Source: Nitrospirota bacterium
GTDB lineage: Bacteria; Nitrospirota; Thermodesulfovibrionia; Thermodesulfovibrionales; UBA9159
Length of the DNA: 64,000 nt
Reading direction: 5' to 3'
Assembly (NCBI GenBank): GCA_023475105.1
Contig: JAMCWJ010000024.1
Span: forward strand, 1-64,000
Shown here: positions 7,093 through 15,888 of the stretch, in pieces
How positions within the stretch are numbered: the first letter of the stretch is position 1
How the letters are laid out: every line of letters starts with the position of its first letter
The notes under the pieces: model-generated
Database searches by the model: none
Told to the model about the DNA's origin: nothing
What the model saw: only the letters and a program-made list of their open reading frames with translations
Translations under genes and position numbers: made by a program

Positions 7093-10000
7093 TTATGCAT
7101 CAGCCTCTTCTCCCTGCGCCCGGTTTTTCAGTCCCCTGCCCTTCCAGAGCATATAAATAGCGGGGTAGATTACCAGCGTCAGAATGGTAGAGGTGATTAC
7201 ACCGCCAATCATCGGCGCGGCAATCCTCTGCATAACATCGGAGCCTGCGCCGGTGCTGAACATGACGGGCACGAGACCGGCGAGGATGACGCTGACGGTC
7301 ATCATCTTCGGTCGCAACCTTTTCACTGCACCATACATCACCGCATCCCGGAGGTCATCAATACTGTTCAAACGTCCTTCATTTTTCCACTGTTTGTAGG
7401 CAAGATCAAGATAAAGGAGCATCACGACCCCGGTTTCGGCAGCCAGTCCTGCAAGGGCAATTATCCCAACCCAGACGGCAATGCTCATGTTGTAACCGAG
7501 AATATAAAGATACCAGAATGAGCCCACAAGAGAAAACGGGAGGGCGGAAAGGACTATCAGTGTCTCAGGGATGGACTTCGTGTTGAAGTAGATAAGAACA
7601 AAGATAATGAGTACGGTTAGAGGGATAACGACTTTCAGCCTTTCCTGGGTCTTCACAAGGTATTCATACTCACCGCTCCACTCAAGGCGGTACCCGGCAG
7701 GGATCTTCAGCGCGGAAACCCTCTTTTTTGCCTCATCCACATATCCCCCCACGTCCCTTCCAGTAAAGTCAATAAATACATAAGATGCGAGCAGGCCGGC
7801 CTCGCTCTTAATGGCTGTCGGGCCCCTAACAATCTTTATTTCTACAAGCTCGCCAAGGGGAACCTGAGCCGAACCAATAGATGAAGGAAGCAGGGAGTAG
7901 GCGGTACCTCCTCCGCTCATGGGGCCGGCTCCGGCCTGCAAAGGCATTCCTGAAACAGGCTGGGCTGCGGCCATTCCCATCACGGGTATGAGAACCCTCT
8001 TTAGCCTGGCGATGGTGTCACGTAACTCCCTCGCATATCTTACATTGACGGGATACCTTTCCCTGCCCTCCACGGTCGTAGTGAGGTTCATCCCTCCGAG
8101 GGCGGACTGTATTACCTCCTGAACATCATCTACGGTCAAACCATAGCGTGCCACCTCTTCACGTTTGATCTTGAAATCAAGGAAATAACCCGTCGTCACT
8201 CTTTCCGCATAGGCGCTTCTCGTGCCCCGAATATCTTTTACAGCGTCCTCTATTTCGAAGCCTATCCTCTCGATCTCTTCGATCTTCGGACCCAGAACCT
8301 TGACGCCCACGGGAGTCCTTATGCCGGTCGAGAGCATATCGGTCCTTGCCTTAATGGGCATCGTAAAGGAGTTCGCAACACCCGGGATCTGCAAGGCATC
8401 ATTCATCTCGTTCTTGAGCTTCTCCACGTCCATACCCTTCCTCCACTCCTTTTCGGGCTTGAGATTCACCACAGTCTCGAACATCTCCAGCGGCGCCGGG
8501 TCCGTAGCGGTCTCAGCTCTGCCTGCCTTTCCGAAGACCTGCGCAACCTCGGGTATCTTCTTCAATATCTTGTCCTGCATCTGAAGGAGATCCGTCACCA
8601 CAGAGATCGAAGGAGGCGGCACCGTGACGGGCATGTAGAGGAGTGTCCCCTCGTAAAGGGGGGGCATGAATTCAGAGCCGAGTTTGATAAACGGATAGGT
8701 GGTAACTGCCAGGGCTATTATTGCCAGTACGATAACTGACTTTCTGAACCTTAGGGCAAGTTTAACAAAGGGCTCGTAAACTTTGTGAAGGAGGATGCCT
8801 ACGGGATTCTTTTCTTCAGGTCTTATTTTGCCCCGGATGAAGAGGGTCATCAAGACAGGCGTCAGGGTTATGGCTAGAAGAGATGAGAAAAGCATGGCAA
8901 AGGTCTTTGTGTACGCCAGCGGCTTGAAGAGTCTCCCTGCCTGTGCCTGGAGGGTGAAGACAGGAAGGAACCCGACTGTTATCACGAGGAGGGCAAAGAA
9001 AAGAGACGGACCGACTTCCTTCGCCGCGTCGATGATCACCTCTATCCTCGGACATCGCTTTGCATCCGCAAGACAATACCAGTCTTGCAGCTTTTTATGA
9101 GCATTCTCGACCATGATGATCGACGCATCCACCATCGCTCCTATGGCGATTGCAATGCCGCTCAGACTCATGATGTTCGAAGTGACCTTGAGGTAGTACA
9201 TAAGTATGAATGAGATAATGATCGCTACAGGGAGCGTCAGGATGACCACCAGGGCACTTGGAAGATGAAACAGAAATACAATGCAGACCACGCTCACAGC
9301 TATGGATAGCTTTATAATCTCTTCCCTGAGCGTATCGATGGAACGGTGTATCAGGTCAGACCTGTCATAGGTGACGACAACCTTCATCCCCTTGGGCAGG
9401 CTCGGCTCGATATCATTCCTGATCTTCTCCTTTACCCTATCAATAACGTTCAGGACATTCTCGCCGAATCTGATAACTACGATGCCCCCGGCCACTTCTC
9501 CCTTGCCGTCGAGTTCCGCGATACCCCTCCGTATCTCGGGCCCGAGTTGTACATTGGCAACATCCTTCAGAAAGATCGGCGTCCCGGCGCCATTGGTCCC
9601 TACGGCAATGTCCTCGATGTCCTTAACGCTTCTTATATACCCCCGGCCTCTCAGCATGTATTCGACACCCGAGAATTCGAGCACCCTTCCCTCTACGTCC
9701 TTATTGCTCTTTTTCACCGCTTCCATCACCTTCATAAGAGGAAGGTTATACGCGAGAAGGCGGTTCGGGTCTATCGTTATCTGATACTGTTTTACAAACC
9801 CGCCGATACTCGCCACCTGCGAGACCCCCGGAACGCTCTCCAGGGCAAGCTTTAGGTTGTAATCCTGCACCGTGCGAAGTTGGGAAAGATCATACTGGCC
9901 CGATTCATCGACTACCGCATAAGAAAAACCCCACCCTACTCCCGTCGCATCAGGTCCCAGCACAGGGTTGACTTCCGCGGGGATCTTATTCTTCACGGCC

Positions 10001-10344
10001 TGGAGATATTCGAGCACCCTGCTCCTGGCCCAGTAGATATCGGTCCCCTCTTCGAAGATCACGTAGATGAAGGAACTTCCCAGATAAGAAAAGCCTCGCA
10101 CCGCCTTGACCCTCGGAGCTGCAAGTAATGTGGCAGAGATGGGATAAGTAATCTGGTCTTCAACAAGGTCAGGACTTCTCCCAGTCCATTCGGTGAAGAC
10201 GATCACCTGTGGGTCGCTCAGATCGGGCAACGCGTCGAGGGGGGTGTTTTTCAGCGATAGATATCCCCAAATGCATAAGAAAAAGACAAAAAGGAAGATA
10301 ATGAACTTGTTCCTGGCGCTGTATTCAATGATCTTCGCGATCAC
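7093..10344 (-). CDS. cusA: CusA-type heavy-metal RND efflux pump, inner-membrane subunit
   Basis: A 1083-residue HME-RND transporter driven by the proton gradient, the pump of a tripartite Cu(I)/Ag(I) system. It shows the N-terminal TM1 and the family sequence NTPLDALPDLSDPQVI, the porter-domain repeat after about residue 570, and the TM4 region ending IAIGAMVDASIIMVENAH. An insert near residues 790-815 is rich in Met and Gly (PVMGMAAAQPVSGMPLQAGA), fitting methionine-based copper capture. The stop of cusB lies immediately before its ATG. Metal choice is inferred from CusA similarity and Met content; Zn/Co (CzcA) is less likely. Confidence 0.93.
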   Translation of the reverse strand: MIAKIIEYSARNKFIIFLFVFFLCIWGYLSLKNTPLDALPDLSDPQVIVFTEWTGRSPDLVEDQITYPISATLLAAPRVKAVRGFSYLGSSFIYVIFEEGTDIYWARSRVLEYLQAVKNKIPAEVNPVLGPDATGVGWGFSYAVVDESGQYDLSQLRTVQDYNLKLALESVPGVSQVASIGGFVKQYQITIDPNRLLAYNLPLMKVMEAVKKSNKDVEGRVLEFSGVEYMLRGRGYIRSVKDIEDIAVGTNGAGTPIFLKDVANVQLGPEIRRGIAELDGKGEVAGGIVVIRFGENVLNVIDRVKEKIRNDIEPSLPKGMKVVVTYDRSDLIHRSIDTLREEIIKLSIAVSVVCIVFLFHLPSALVVILTLPVAIIISFILMYYLKVTSNIMSLSGIAIAIGAMVDASIIMVENAHKKLQDWYCLADAKRCPRIEVIIDAAKEVGPSLFFALLVITVGFLPVFTLQAQAGRLFKPLAYTKTFAMLFSSLLAITLTPVLMTLFIRGKIRPEEKNPVGILLHKVYEPFVKLALRFRKSVIVLAIIALAVTTYPFIKLGSEFMPPLYEGTLLYMPVTVPPPSISVVTDLLQMQDKILKKIPEVAQVFGKAGRAETATDPAPLEMFETVVNLKPEKEWRKGMDVEKLKNEMNDALQIPGVANSFTMPIKARTDMLSTGIRTPVGVKVLGPKIEEIERIGFEIEDAVKDIRGTRSAYAERVTTGYFLDFKIKREEVARYGLTVDDVQEVIQSALGGMNLTTTVEGRERYPVNVRYARELRDTIARLKRVLIPVMGMAAAQPVSGMPLQAGAGPMSGGGTAYSLLPSSIGSAQVPLGELVEIKIVRGPTAIKSEAGLLASYVFIDFTGRDVGGYVDEAKKRVSALKIPAGYRLEWSGEYEYLVKTQERLKVVIPLTVLIIFVLIYFNTKSIPETLIVLSALPFSLVGSFWYLYILGYNMSIAVWVGIIALAGLAAETGVVMLLYLDLAYKQWKNEGRLNSIDDLRDAVMYGAVKRLRPKMMTVSVILAGLVPVMFSTGAGSDVMQRIAAPMIGGVITSTILTLVIYPAIYMLWKGRGLKNRAQGEEADA

Positions 10345-11619
10345 TTACTTGACAACCCCCTTCAGTTTTGCCTCCGAGTCAATAAGGAAGTTGGCCGCAG
10401 AAGCGATCTTCTCTTTCTCCTTAAGACCCTTCAGGACCTCGACCAGCCCTTCGGCCCGTAGCCCGAGGGTCACCTCCCTCGGCTCGAAATATCCCTCACC
10501 CTTGTCAACATAGACGATTTGTCTCATTCCCGTATCTATGACCGCATCTTCCGGAATGGCGAGCCTCCTGCCCATATTGATCTTCAGTTCGACATCGGTG
10601 AACATCTGGGGTTTGAGCTGTCCGCCCGGATTGGGAATGGAAAATCTCACCTTAGCGGTCCTTGTTTCGCCGGAAAGCGTGGGATAGACATAATCAATCC
10701 GCGATGTAAACTCCCTGCCCGGAAAATAACTGAGACTGATCTTTGCCGTCTCACCGGTCTTTATTAAAGGTAATTCATATTCATAAATATCAGCAATGAT
10801 CCAGATTGTAGAGAGATCGGCAACGTCAAAGAGCTTTTCTCCGGGCATTACGCGCGTTCCCTTAAATACCATCTTTTGCACGACATAGCCGTTCACCGGG
10901 CTGTATATGGTGAGCGTTCGTATGGGTTTGCCGGTCTCCTCTACCCTTTTGATCTCCTCGTCGGATATATCCCAAAGTTTCAGCCGCTGCCGTGCCGCCT
11001 CCACTATCCTATCGGCATCATTCGAGAGCATATCGGAAACGGAAGGACTCACCCCCTTTTCATTCCCCCCCTTGCCAGGGGGCGTATTGCTTTTCTTTGC
11101 CCATCTCAGGACATTTATGAACTCCTGCTGCGTCGCATAAAGCTCCGGGCTGTAAAACTCGGCAAGGGGCGCCCCTTCCTTTACATACAATCCCGTGTAA
11201 TCCACATACAGTTTTTCAATCCATCCCTCGAATTTTGTGTTTACCGTGGCAAGCCTCTTTTCGTCATATTCGATGCGCCCCACCGTCCTGACGATTTTGT
11301 GGAGGGGTCTTACTGCCACTTCCACGGTCTTGACGCCGATCAACTGCTGCTTTTCGAGAGGAATTTCTACTGTAGGTGCTTCTTCAGCACTTTCTTGTTC
11401 CTTTGGTTGCGCTTTCGTCTGCTCCCCCGGAGGCTGGGGTTGTGACATGCCGGGCATTCCAGGCATTTCGCCACGTCCAGGATCGGCAGCAGGCTGTTGG
11501 GTCGTTGGTTCCTTTCCCGGAAGCCTATTTACGAAACCCGATCTCGAAAGATAAAATAAAATTCCGGCGAGGCTAACGAATCCGACAACGAGTATAACGA
11601 TGAAGTTTCTTTTCTTCAT
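10345..11619 (-). CDS. cusB: CusB-type periplasmic adaptor (membrane fusion protein)
   Basis: A 424-residue adaptor that links the CusA pump to the outer-membrane channel. It has an N-terminal anchor (FIVILVVGFVSLAGILFYL), a Met/Pro/Gln-rich linker (GEMPGMPGMSQPQPPG) likely to bind Cu(I), a hairpin around ATQQEFINVL, a barrel-sandwich half (YSPVNGYVVQKMV, GTRVMPGEKLFDVADLSTIW) and a C-terminal membrane-proximal domain. A low-complexity insert (NTPPGKGGNEKG) sits in the hairpin. It lies directly between the channel and pump genes. Confidence 0.92.
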   Translation of the reverse strand: MKKRNFIVILVVGFVSLAGILFYLSRSGFVNRLPGKEPTTQQPAADPGRGEMPGMPGMSQPQPPGEQTKAQPKEQESAEEAPTVEIPLEKQQLIGVKTVEVAVRPLHKIVRTVGRIEYDEKRLATVNTKFEGWIEKLYVDYTGLYVKEGAPLAEFYSPELYATQQEFINVLRWAKKSNTPPGKGGNEKGVSPSVSDMLSNDADRIVEAARQRLKLWDISDEEIKRVEETGKPIRTLTIYSPVNGYVVQKMVFKGTRVMPGEKLFDVADLSTIWIIADIYEYELPLIKTGETAKISLSYFPGREFTSRIDYVYPTLSGETRTAKVRFSIPNPGGQLKPQMFTDVELKINMGRRLAIPEDAVIDTGMRQIVYVDKGEGYFEPREVTLGLRAEGLVEVLKGLKEKEKIASAANFLIDSEAKLKGVVK

Positions 11620-11621
11620 GT

Positions 11622-12953
11622 TTATTTGCCTCCCAATCGAGAATCCTGAATTCCTGTCACTGCTTCAATTCTTGCTACTGCCTTTTCCCTCTCGACAAAT
11701 TGCTTCCAGTACAAGGTCTCGAAGTCGAGAAGCGCCTTAAGCCTGTTTATCACGGTTATCGCCTCGATCTTCCCCGTAACATAGCCGGCAATGGCTAATT
11801 CAAAATCCTGATAGGTCTTCGGGATCAATCCCTTCTTGTACAAATCCATCAAAATCTCTGCCGTCTTGAGCATGGAATAATTGTCTCTTATATTGGAAGA
11901 GAGCATCAATTTAGTCGATTCAAGCTCATTCCTCGTCTCTGACAGGGAAGCCCTTGCCTCATTCACCGCCTGCCTCTGTTTGGTCTTGTAAAAGATCGGG
12001 ATATTGATTGCAGTTGTAAGGCTCCACATATCCTCAAACTGCCCGCCACCCCTGTTGAAGTAGCCCGCATTGACAGTGAAATCAGGATAATATTCCAGTT
12101 CAGCCATCTTCACCTTTGCCTCAGCAGCCCCGATCATCCTCTCTCTCGCTTTTATTTCAGGCGAATTCTCGTAGGCGATATTGACCAGTTCTTCCATAGT
12201 GCGTCCATATGGCATATATGACGGCTCTACAGGTCTTCCGAGGGGGGAATTGACATCCCTTCCGATCGTGGTGTTAAGCATCGCCTCAAAGGACTGGATC
12301 TTCTGCCTCTGCATTTCTTCCTTCTCGAGAAGCATATATTTCTCTGTCTGGGCCATCAACACCTCCTGCTGGGGACCCATGCCGGAGGAGTATCTCGCTA
12401 TGGCGGCATCTTCTATCCTCGAAAAGAGAGCAGTTGTATCCTTGAGGATGTCGATATCCTTGTATGCAAAAAAGAGATCATAGTAAAGCTCCTTGACCTT
12501 TGCAGTTACCTTTAGTTTCAAGGACTGATAAGAGGCGCCCAGGCTCTCTGACTCCTTTGCAGCCATCTCGCCTTTTGTGGAAAGTTTTCCCGGGAAAGGG
12601 AACATCTGGGAAGCACTGAACATCCACTGGGCCATCTGCATCTTCCCATAGGAGTACTCCTTCCATCCTTCGTTCTGATATCCGAACATGAACATTGGAT
12701 CTGGAAGGCTCTTTGCCTGGGGGATTCTATATTGCGAGGCAGAAACCTTATACTGAGAAGCGAGGATTTCAGGACTCTTTTGCAGCGCCTCATTGATCAG
12801 CGCCTGAAGGTCCAGATCTTCGGCATACACAGTGCTCGCCGCAAATAAAACAGAGCAGAGAACAATGAAGCGGAGAAACGGTGTGGCGGCAAAACGCCCA
12901 AAAAGAGTGATCTCCCCTCCCCGCGACCCCGACACTCCGTATCTCCATATCAT
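11622..12953 (-). CDS. TolC/CusC-like outer-membrane efflux protein
   Basis: A 443-residue outer-membrane factor, the exit duct of the tripartite pump. It has a signal peptide (FIVLCSVLFAASTVYA) and two outer-membrane-efflux repeats typified by LINEALQKSPEILASQYK near the N-terminus and LVNIAYENSPEIKARERM in the second half. The start is uncertain: the first ATG follows the previous stop by 4 bases but has no clear Shine-Dalgarno sequence. Last channel component of the cus operon. Confidence 0.9.
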   Translation of the reverse strand: MIWRYGVSGSRGGEITLFGRFAATPFLRFIVLCSVLFAASTVYAEDLDLQALINEALQKSPEILASQYKVSASQYRIPQAKSLPDPMFMFGYQNEGWKEYSYGKMQMAQWMFSASQMFPFPGKLSTKGEMAAKESESLGASYQSLKLKVTAKVKELYYDLFFAYKDIDILKDTTALFSRIEDAAIARYSSGMGPQQEVLMAQTEKYMLLEKEEMQRQKIQSFEAMLNTTIGRDVNSPLGRPVEPSYMPYGRTMEELVNIAYENSPEIKARERMIGAAEAKVKMAELEYYPDFTVNAGYFNRGGGQFEDMWSLTTAINIPIFYKTKQRQAVNEARASLSETRNELESTKLMLSSNIRDNYSMLKTAEILMDLYKKGLIPKTYQDFELAIAGYVTGKIEAITVINRLKALLDFETLYWKQFVEREKAVARIEAVTGIQDSRLGGK

Positions 12954-12957
12954 AGTT

Positions 12958-13347
12958 CTATTTCACATCTACCGTGAATTTCGCAGTGGAAGTCTTGCCT
13001 GCCCTTGTAACTTTCACCGCTATGTTCCAGGAACCGGCCATGGACGGCTTCATAGTAGCCCTATATCCATCCCCTTTTAATTCAGCATTCGCCTTATAGT
13101 TGGCCGCAGGCATTCCGGGCATTGGAGGCATGCTGTATTCCAAAACCACTTTCGCATCCTTGGCGTGATGACCTGAACCGTCGGTCACCTCGATGCTCAC
13201 GTTGTTATCGCCAACAATCGGTGGGTTCTTGTCGATCTTCACCGCCACATTATATTCGCCTGCCTTCTTGGTAACCTCATAGTCCCTTGCGTAAGCGATA
13301 CCTGCGACCAGGAGCATCACCAAAGTAACTATAGCAACCCTTTTCAT
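12958..13347 (-). CDS. Exported YtkA/FixH-like immunoglobulin-fold protein
   Basis: A 129-residue periplasmic protein: signal peptide (VTLVMLLVAGIAYA) and then a single beta-sandwich domain with the YtkA/FixH patterns NPPIVGDNNVSIEV, VVLEYSMPPMPGMPAANY and MAGSWNIAVKV. The MPPMPGMP stretch is a plausible Cu(I)-binding Met motif. AGGAGG precedes the ATG. It sits between the selenoprotein gene and the channel, so it is probably an accessory or chaperone of the copper pump. Confidence 0.85.
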   Translation of the reverse strand: MKRVAIVTLVMLLVAGIAYARDYEVTKKAGEYNVAVKIDKNPPIVGDNNVSIEVTDGSGHHAKDAKVVLEYSMPPMPGMPAANYKANAELKGDGYRATMKPSMAGSWNIAVKVTRAGKTSTAKFTVDVK

Positions 13348-13371: not shown

Positions 13372-13779
13372 CTAGCGTTTATATTCTTTTTCGACCATCT
13401 CCCGGATTTTTTTCACAGGATAGCCTTTTTTGTACAGCTCGAAGGCCCTCCGGGCCTCCCCCTGACAAATATCTCACATCGCTGCATGCTTGTCAACGTA
13501 ACAACTGAGGAGACTCTTGTGTCTGAAAACCGGCGACTCCTCACATTGACAAAAGCAGTAGATACTGTCGAGCACCCAGGGGATCTCCTTCGCTATTGCG
13601 TACGCCTCTTTCGCACGGGGATCTCCTAACATCCTTGGATCCAAGGTGGCTCCGTTTTCGCCTCTCCTCAGTGATTCGTCTTTCCGGCCTGTCGCTCCCT
13701 TCTGCGCCGCTTCCATGGCCGCCGCGAAGAAAAGCAACGACAGGCATAGCGCCGTGAAGCCGATGTACTGTCGTTTCAT
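13372..13779 (-). CDS. Probable selenoprotein, PCYCGC/CYCXC-like family, with in-frame UGA
   Basis: A 135-residue exported protein if UGA at 13474-13476 is read as selenocysteine. Signal peptide (FTALCLSLLFFAAAMEA), then SIYCFCQCEESP and HKSLLSCYVDKHAAM, then the UGA, then DICQGEARRAFELYKKGYP and KKIREMVEKEYKR up to a TAG. The part after the UGA has normal coding character and completes the family's C-terminal helix, giving a U-x2-C redox-type motif where I recall relatives having Cys. A hairpin in the right place downstream fits a bacterial SECIS. Function is not established; a thiol/selenol redox or metal-trafficking role is inferred. First gene of the cus operon. The alternative is a 101-residue truncated protein. 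Confidence 0.8.
13441..13459 (-). other. Candidate bacterial SECIS hairpin
   Basis: Read on the minus strand, an 8-bp stem (13452-13459 with 13441-13448, one G-U pair) is capped by the loop GGA (13449-13451). The loop begins 22 bases after the UGA and has G in its first positions, as known bacterial SECIS loops do. It lies inside the coding sequence, as expected in bacteria. Confidence 0.7.
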
Positions 13780-14967: not shown

Positions 14968-15378
14968 TCAATGACTATGGTGTCCTTTCTCCGGCGCCTG
15001 TTCCTGCGAACCAATGTTGGATCTTCCCTTTTCCATTTTCTCGATATATTTCTCAGGGTCTTTCTTGAATTCTTCAAGGCAGTCTGTGCAACAAAAGGCG
15101 TAGATCTTTCCCTTGTATTCGTATGTCACCTTTGTCTTTTCATCAATCCCCTCGCCACTTACCGGACATATCGAGTTCCCTGCCTCCTCTGCTTTGTTCC
15201 CTTCCGGAGAGGCCTTTGCTTTCTCTGCGCCGGCCTCTTTCTCGTGTTCCGCGTGCGCCGTCTGCAAGTAACTTTTCTCAAGTCTTCTTTCTTCACCGCT
15301 CAGTGCAGAAAAAGAAAGGCCGTTTACCCCGATTACGCCCACCACTGCAACCACAACAACCGTCATTTTCTTAAGCAT
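14968..15378 (-). CDS. Exported YHS/TRASH-domain metal-binding protein
   Basis: About 136 residues: signal/anchor (MTVVVVAVVGVIGVNGLSF), a Lys/Glu/Ala-rich linker, then a YHS/TRASH-type domain with ICPVSGEGIDEKTKVTYEYKG and FCCTDCLEEFKKDPEKYI, and a His-ending tail (KGHHSH). Cys residues in CPV and FCCTDC are the usual copper/zinc ligands. The ATG (MLKK) was chosen because AAGGAGG is 6 bases upstream, while the earlier ATG abuts that site. A periplasmic metal chaperone or sensor role fits the nearby cus operon but is inferred. Confidence 0.88.
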   Translation of the reverse strand: MLKKMTVVVVAVVGVIGVNGLSFSALSGEERRLEKSYLQTAHAEHEKEAGAEKAKASPEGNKAEEAGNSICPVSGEGIDEKTKVTYEYKGKIYAFCCTDCLEEFKKDPEKYIEKMEKGRSNIGSQEQAPEKGHHSH

Positions 15379-15888
15379 GCTCATCCTCCTTAATCTTTCC
15401 CTCGCCCTGTGCATTCCTTTATCAGAATCGCCCGGCCCTGAATAAAGAGCTCTTTTTTCTTTACAATATAAAATTTAGTATATAAAACTATCAACAGAAA
15501 TTTATCACCTTACGGAGGTGCTTTTCCGTAACCTGATCCATACTGCCCTTCTCCCTGCGTACCGGCAGTTCGTTACCCTTCTCATTTCATCCGTCTTCCG
15601 GCGTTCTGTAATCGTTTTGTGAAATATTTCTCATGGGTCCGCCGAGCACAGGCATCTACCTGTCGTTCCTCGCGACACTTCCGGCCTGGACCTTTCCGGG
15701 GAAGAACTATTTCAAATTGTCTTCACAATCTTGTGTTACAATTGCATACAGACTGTAGAGATAGCAAAAATCGCTTCGCTCTGAAGCCCGGTGGCAGCGG
15801 GAAGAGATGGAGATGCTGCCGCGAGGACGTTCCTTGCGGAAAAGAGAATTCAAAGATTATCCACGTGATGGCGCCTTCGCCAAGAACG
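15379..15888. other. Intergenic region without recognised genes
   Basis: About 510 bp between divergent genes. The left part is AT-rich (TTTATATACTAAATTTTATA on the minus strand) and probably holds the YHS-gene promoter. On the plus strand GTTACC-N14-CGTC near 15573-15596 resembles the local ECF-type promoter but is one base short in spacing. No coding sequence or RNA family was recognised. Confidence 0.4.

Follow-up and report, generated by a model that had tools for sequence, protein, structure and literature searches.

The selenoprotein family OS_HP4 has been known since 2007 and is credited to Zhang and Gladyshev in the account given by a 2026 review (PMC13188914), which lists it as "CYCXC family protein (hypothetical protein OS_HP4), PF13798, UxxC" and gives it a single selenocysteine (Sec). 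OS_HP4 has also been entered with UxxC elsewhere (PMC9312934), and NCBIfam holds the family as NF041379 (OS_HP4_CYCXC, "CYCXC family (seleno)protein"). For the PCYCGC domain, PF13798, no function is recorded in Pfam. In the literature that we searched, with partial coverage, we found no report tying the OS_HP4/CYCXC family to copper.

Here, we describe a further member of this family, encoded in a 64,000-nucleotide (nt) stretch of Nitrospirota DNA (the window). A sequence-only reading of the window had presented the gene as a probable new selenoprotein, but NF041379/OS_HP4 was already a UxxC selenoprotein family in both of the sources above. Like the described family, the protein scores over the family cut-off, has a CxCxC motif, and carries one predicted Sec, in UxxC. 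It differs from OS_HP4 as known in coming from a member of the Nitrospirota rather than from the Olavius symbiont and in heading a ytkA-cusCBA operon, a context that we did not find described. What is less familiar is that, in this lineage, such genes repeatedly come first in a copper-export operon.

Results

An in-frame UGA divides a CYCXC-family gene

The gene begins at an ATG at 13779 on the minus strand, preceded by a plausible ribosome-binding site (GGGAGGTGACGAG-ATG), and runs for 101 codons, ending ...HKSLLSCYVDKHAAM, to a UGA at 13476-13474 (Table 1). Past the UGA, the same frame continues for 33 further codons (DICQGEARRAFELYKKGYPVKKIREMVEKEYKR) to a TAG at 13374-13372. The sequence-only reading had the frame and coordinates right, with the strand left unnamed, and translation bears out its proposal that a UGA read as Sec yields U-x2-C (UDIC). 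Were the UGA the end of the gene, 126 bp would separate it from ytkA; from the TAG, the gap is 24 bp. A read-through scan of the window ranked 12 TGA candidates by hairpin energy, and those other than the OS_HP4 gene resemble frame noise when judged by eye.

Table 1. Coordinates of the predicted selenoprotein gene, its elements, and the downstream operon genes in the window
Feature	Position	Strand	Basis or detail
CYCXC-family gene, predicted selenoprotein (OS_HP4, NF041379 / PF13798)	13372..13779	-	135 aa, predicted Sec at residue 102
In-frame UGA, predicted Sec102 of the UxxC motif	13474..13476	-	Translation; 69 aligned homologues, this one included, have UGA or Cys here
SECIS-like hairpin (candidate)	13441..13459	-	8-bp stem, 3-nt loop; MFE, recoding control, covariation
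YtkA-like protein (PF13115), second operon gene	12958..13347	-	Pfam 50.4 bits
CusC-like outer-membrane efflux protein	11622..12953	-	PF02321 143.6 bits
CusB-like adaptor, Met-rich N-terminal segment (EMPGMPGM)	10345..11619	-	PF16576 264 bits
CusA-like RND pump	7093..10344	-	TIGR00914 1102 bits, cut-off 701

Family membership depends on reading through the UGA. The NF041379 cut-off of 90 bits is cleared by the whole protein, at 119 bits, and missed by the form truncated at the UGA, at 74 bits. This difference of 45 bits upholds the earlier suggestion that read-through restores the family C-terminus. The PF13798 score likewise rises from 19.7 bits to 37.2 bits, above the gathering score of 25; the protein departs from that domain in having CFCQC in place of CYCGC and in placing the Sec in a later CxxC motif. 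Among 36 aligned homologues, the columns of the CFCQC and UDIC motifs are invariant as Cys or Sec, and six Cys/Sec and two His are invariant in all. The mature part comprises the CYCxC-type cluster, a further Cys, the two invariant His residues, and UxxC.

Homologues share the UGA or carry Cys in its place

One possibility is that the UGA is a true stop, in a pseudogene or through a sequencing error, with the downstream similarity a mere relic. Standard gene calling does end the open reading frame at the UGA. We compared the gene with homologues taken from a genome search and not from a scan of contigs, which returned a single relative, Nitrospirae MAG MnB_6, the closest named relative found. 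The OS_HP4 family was present in 82 of 396 genomes sampled from the phylum. Within the class, 231 genomes yielded 83 matches above the NF041379 cut-off: 77 contain a single in-frame TGA, one contains two, and five contain none, and no TAA or TAG was found in frame among the 83.

When 69 homologues including this gene are aligned, the same UxxC/CxxC column holds Sec in 54 and Cys in 15, the alternation that the sequence-only reading had put forward as a check. Downstream codons are conserved as far as the family C-terminus, and we did not see homologues that end at this position and are followed by unrelated sequence. The recurrence of the same UGA in 77 other full-length members from the class, never with any other stop, argues against a stop or pseudogene, as do the retention of the following codons as protein, the conserved hairpin, and the complete Sec machinery described below. 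Because 78 UGAs are shared and an RNA structure accompanies them, we consider plain termination or gene decay extremely improbable.

One genome of the set (G274) has four OS_HP4-type genes (loci L057 to L060): one with Sec, one with double Sec, and two with Cys. In the double-Sec gene (L059, 6113-6124), two in-frame TGAs nine bases apart turn UxxC into UxxU, and a hairpin with a GGUC loop lies downstream.

A conserved hairpin follows the UGA in Sec forms

Downstream of the UGA, positions 13459-13452 pair with 13448-13441 around a 3-nt loop (13451-13449). The stem lies 14 bases and the loop 22 bases from the UGA, so that the 8-bp hairpin and its spacing are as first noticed in the sequence. The 39-nt stretch has a minimum free energy (MFE) of -19.0 kcal/mol, a value reached by none of 2000 synonymous recodings drawn from local codon usage (mean, -8.2), and its z-score against dinucleotide shuffles is -2.69.

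In 51 Sec-form sequences, the hairpin keeps a fixed distance, and 94% of its pair cells are paired. Both sides have changed in three pairs, the covariation score is reached in 0 of 500 shuffles, and the signal is lost when the partner is slid by 1 to 3 columns. Mean MFE is -13.5 for Sec forms versus -7.1 for Cys forms (Mann-Whitney p 8e-8), and the recoding z-score is -1.7 versus -0.2; by these two comparisons, the conserved hairpin is absent from Cys forms. Its conservation and covariation in Sec forms agree with the expectation of a bacterial SECIS and point to a SECIS-like element beyond what chance would produce.

The genome encodes the machinery for selenocysteine

The genome carries selA, selB, selC, and selD, whose absence would have spoken against recoding. 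The selB and selA genes are adjacent on contig 35, a tRNA-Sec with a UCA anticodon lies on contig 63, and selD is on contig 31 (L047). The selD gene itself has one in-frame TGA, as would be expected if SelD is a selenoprotein in this genome.

We compared 41 genomes with a clear form, some of the Cys-form genomes being incomplete and kinship being ignored, and found full SelB in 22 of 23 Sec-form versus 5 of 18 Cys-form genomes (Fisher p 6e-6). SelB over the cut-off was not found in one Sec-form genome (G041, 96% complete), and a further genome (G111) stands outside the comparison with a codon that reads NGA. Because the genomes are related, neither these counts nor the cus linkage counts given below are independent.

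A different decoding of the UGA would have Cys inserted by a selC*-type tRNA-Cys. The genome does encode a 96-nt tRNA-Sec-like tRNA (contig 20; L009, 1501-1596) that scores above the Rfam tRNA-Sec cut-off and resembles the selC* tRNA-Cys reported from Nitrospirae and other groups; elsewhere, some such tRNAs carry UCA (PMC7609411). Its anticodon, however, is the Cys anticodon GCA, which makes insertion of Cys by this route unlikely, and the UCA tRNA that we found is tRNA-Sec. The absence of the hairpin from Cys-form homologues and the tracking of UGA forms by SelB also argue against Cys decoding, and we give it very little credence.

Taken together, the family score, the homologues, the RNA, and the machinery agree, and recoding is therefore strongly supported. 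On this sequence evidence, it is highly probable that the gene encodes a CYCXC/OS_HP4 protein in which the UGA is recoded to Sec.

The predicted selenoprotein gene heads a ytkA-cusCBA operon

The placement of the gene first in a cus operon holds up. On the same strand, it is followed directly by ytkA, cusC, cusB, and cusA, with gaps of 24, 4, 2, and 0 bp. For the CusB-like adaptor, the best NCBIfam subfamilies are CzcB/NccB and CusB, both under the cut-off. The nearest PDB structure to the CusA-like pump is E. coli CusA, with which it shares Met residues at aligned sites in the LLYMP, APLEM, and DMLSTGI motifs; we take these to be the Met triad M573/M623/M672 of E. coli CusA. These residues suggest that the pump is specific for Cu(I)/Ag(I).

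A YHS-domain protein is encoded upstream of the operon (window 14968-15414, minus strand), and at three other loci (L033, L036, and L053) the Sec gene is closely followed by a YHS gene. The SO_0444-family Cu/Zn efflux transporter and CopZ-like selenoproteins (PMC13188914) likewise occur near metal handling. Those families, however, are unrelated to CYCXC, and no Sec was seen in the pump here.

The link to copper is confined to a single subfamily

A tree of the 69 homologues, built on few columns and with many open forks, contains two supported Sec groups. Subfamily A, to which this gene belongs, is a Sec subfamily of 32 rows (SH-aLRT 99), and subfamily B has 22 rows, almost all Sec (SH-aLRT 98); besides these, 13 rows are Cys forms and two are unplaced. 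Among the subfamily A loci with enough sequence, cusC or cusB lies within 2.6 kb downstream in 17 of 31 and ytkA lies downstream in 14 of 31, the cus genes usually being reached via ytkA. Neither cusC nor cusB was found downstream at any of 20 subfamily B loci or 12 of the remaining Cys forms. Of 33 loci scanned, 6 have a gene for a redoxin/AhpC-TSA protein in the next position.

The copper link is thus real but partial, and belongs to one subfamily. On the poorly resolved tree, the cus link changes state at least six times. Since the link is missing from the other subfamily and from the Cys forms, the ancestral job of the family need not involve copper. The earlier reading had tied selenium to envelope copper handling; the evidence for that tie is gene order, which is conserved in subfamily A and not in the family as a whole.

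Discussion

The N-terminus of the predicted 135-residue protein resembles a signal sequence when judged by eye, and the protein is probably exported. A profile search of the PDB up to E=1 returned no solved relatives, and a two-sequence structure prediction gave a poor fold model (pLDDT 62). Ideas about its function draw instead on its residues and its neighbors. UxxC is a classical selenol redox pair, and a periplasmic redox role beside the pump is favored on that ground.

We propose that SelB carrying Sec-tRNA(UCA) would read the hairpin after the UGA and that Sec would be inserted at residue 102, so that a probably exported Sec protein would be made first in the ytkA-cusCBA operon. Its most likely role would be in selenol/thiol redox chemistry in the periplasm, where UxxC would form the active pair and would keep envelope thiols or Cu(I) reduced beside the pump that exports Cu(I)/Ag(I). 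We put the chances of such a redox role at roughly even.

Alternatively, the main task of a true selenoprotein here could be to bind Cu(I), as a chaperone or buffer passing copper on to CusCBA, with Sec as a metal ligand. The position at the head of ytkA-cusCBA-type operons in 17 of 31 loci of its own subfamily would fit this function, as would the six invariant Cys/Sec and two invariant His residues and the conserved Met motifs of CusA, and Sec has been proposed as a metal ligand in other selenoproteins (PMC13188914). However, UxxC is the usual redox motif, and these residues are retained in the other Sec subfamily, where no cus link was seen. We regard a mainly chaperone-like role as a serious but less probable alternative to the redox role favored above.

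More tentatively still, one OS_HP4 subfamily may have become part of the module for Cu(I) efflux in this Nitrospirota lineage, with the Sec protein acting as a partner of YtkA-CusCBA that reduces or donates Cu(I). If this is true, envelope copper handling depends on selenium in these bacteria. A gene that standard gene calling cuts short at its UGA here gives a family of unknown function a testable context, in that members of one subfamily recur as the first gene of copper-efflux operons. Should this link prove functional, how well these bacteria tolerate copper would be influenced by their supply of selenium.
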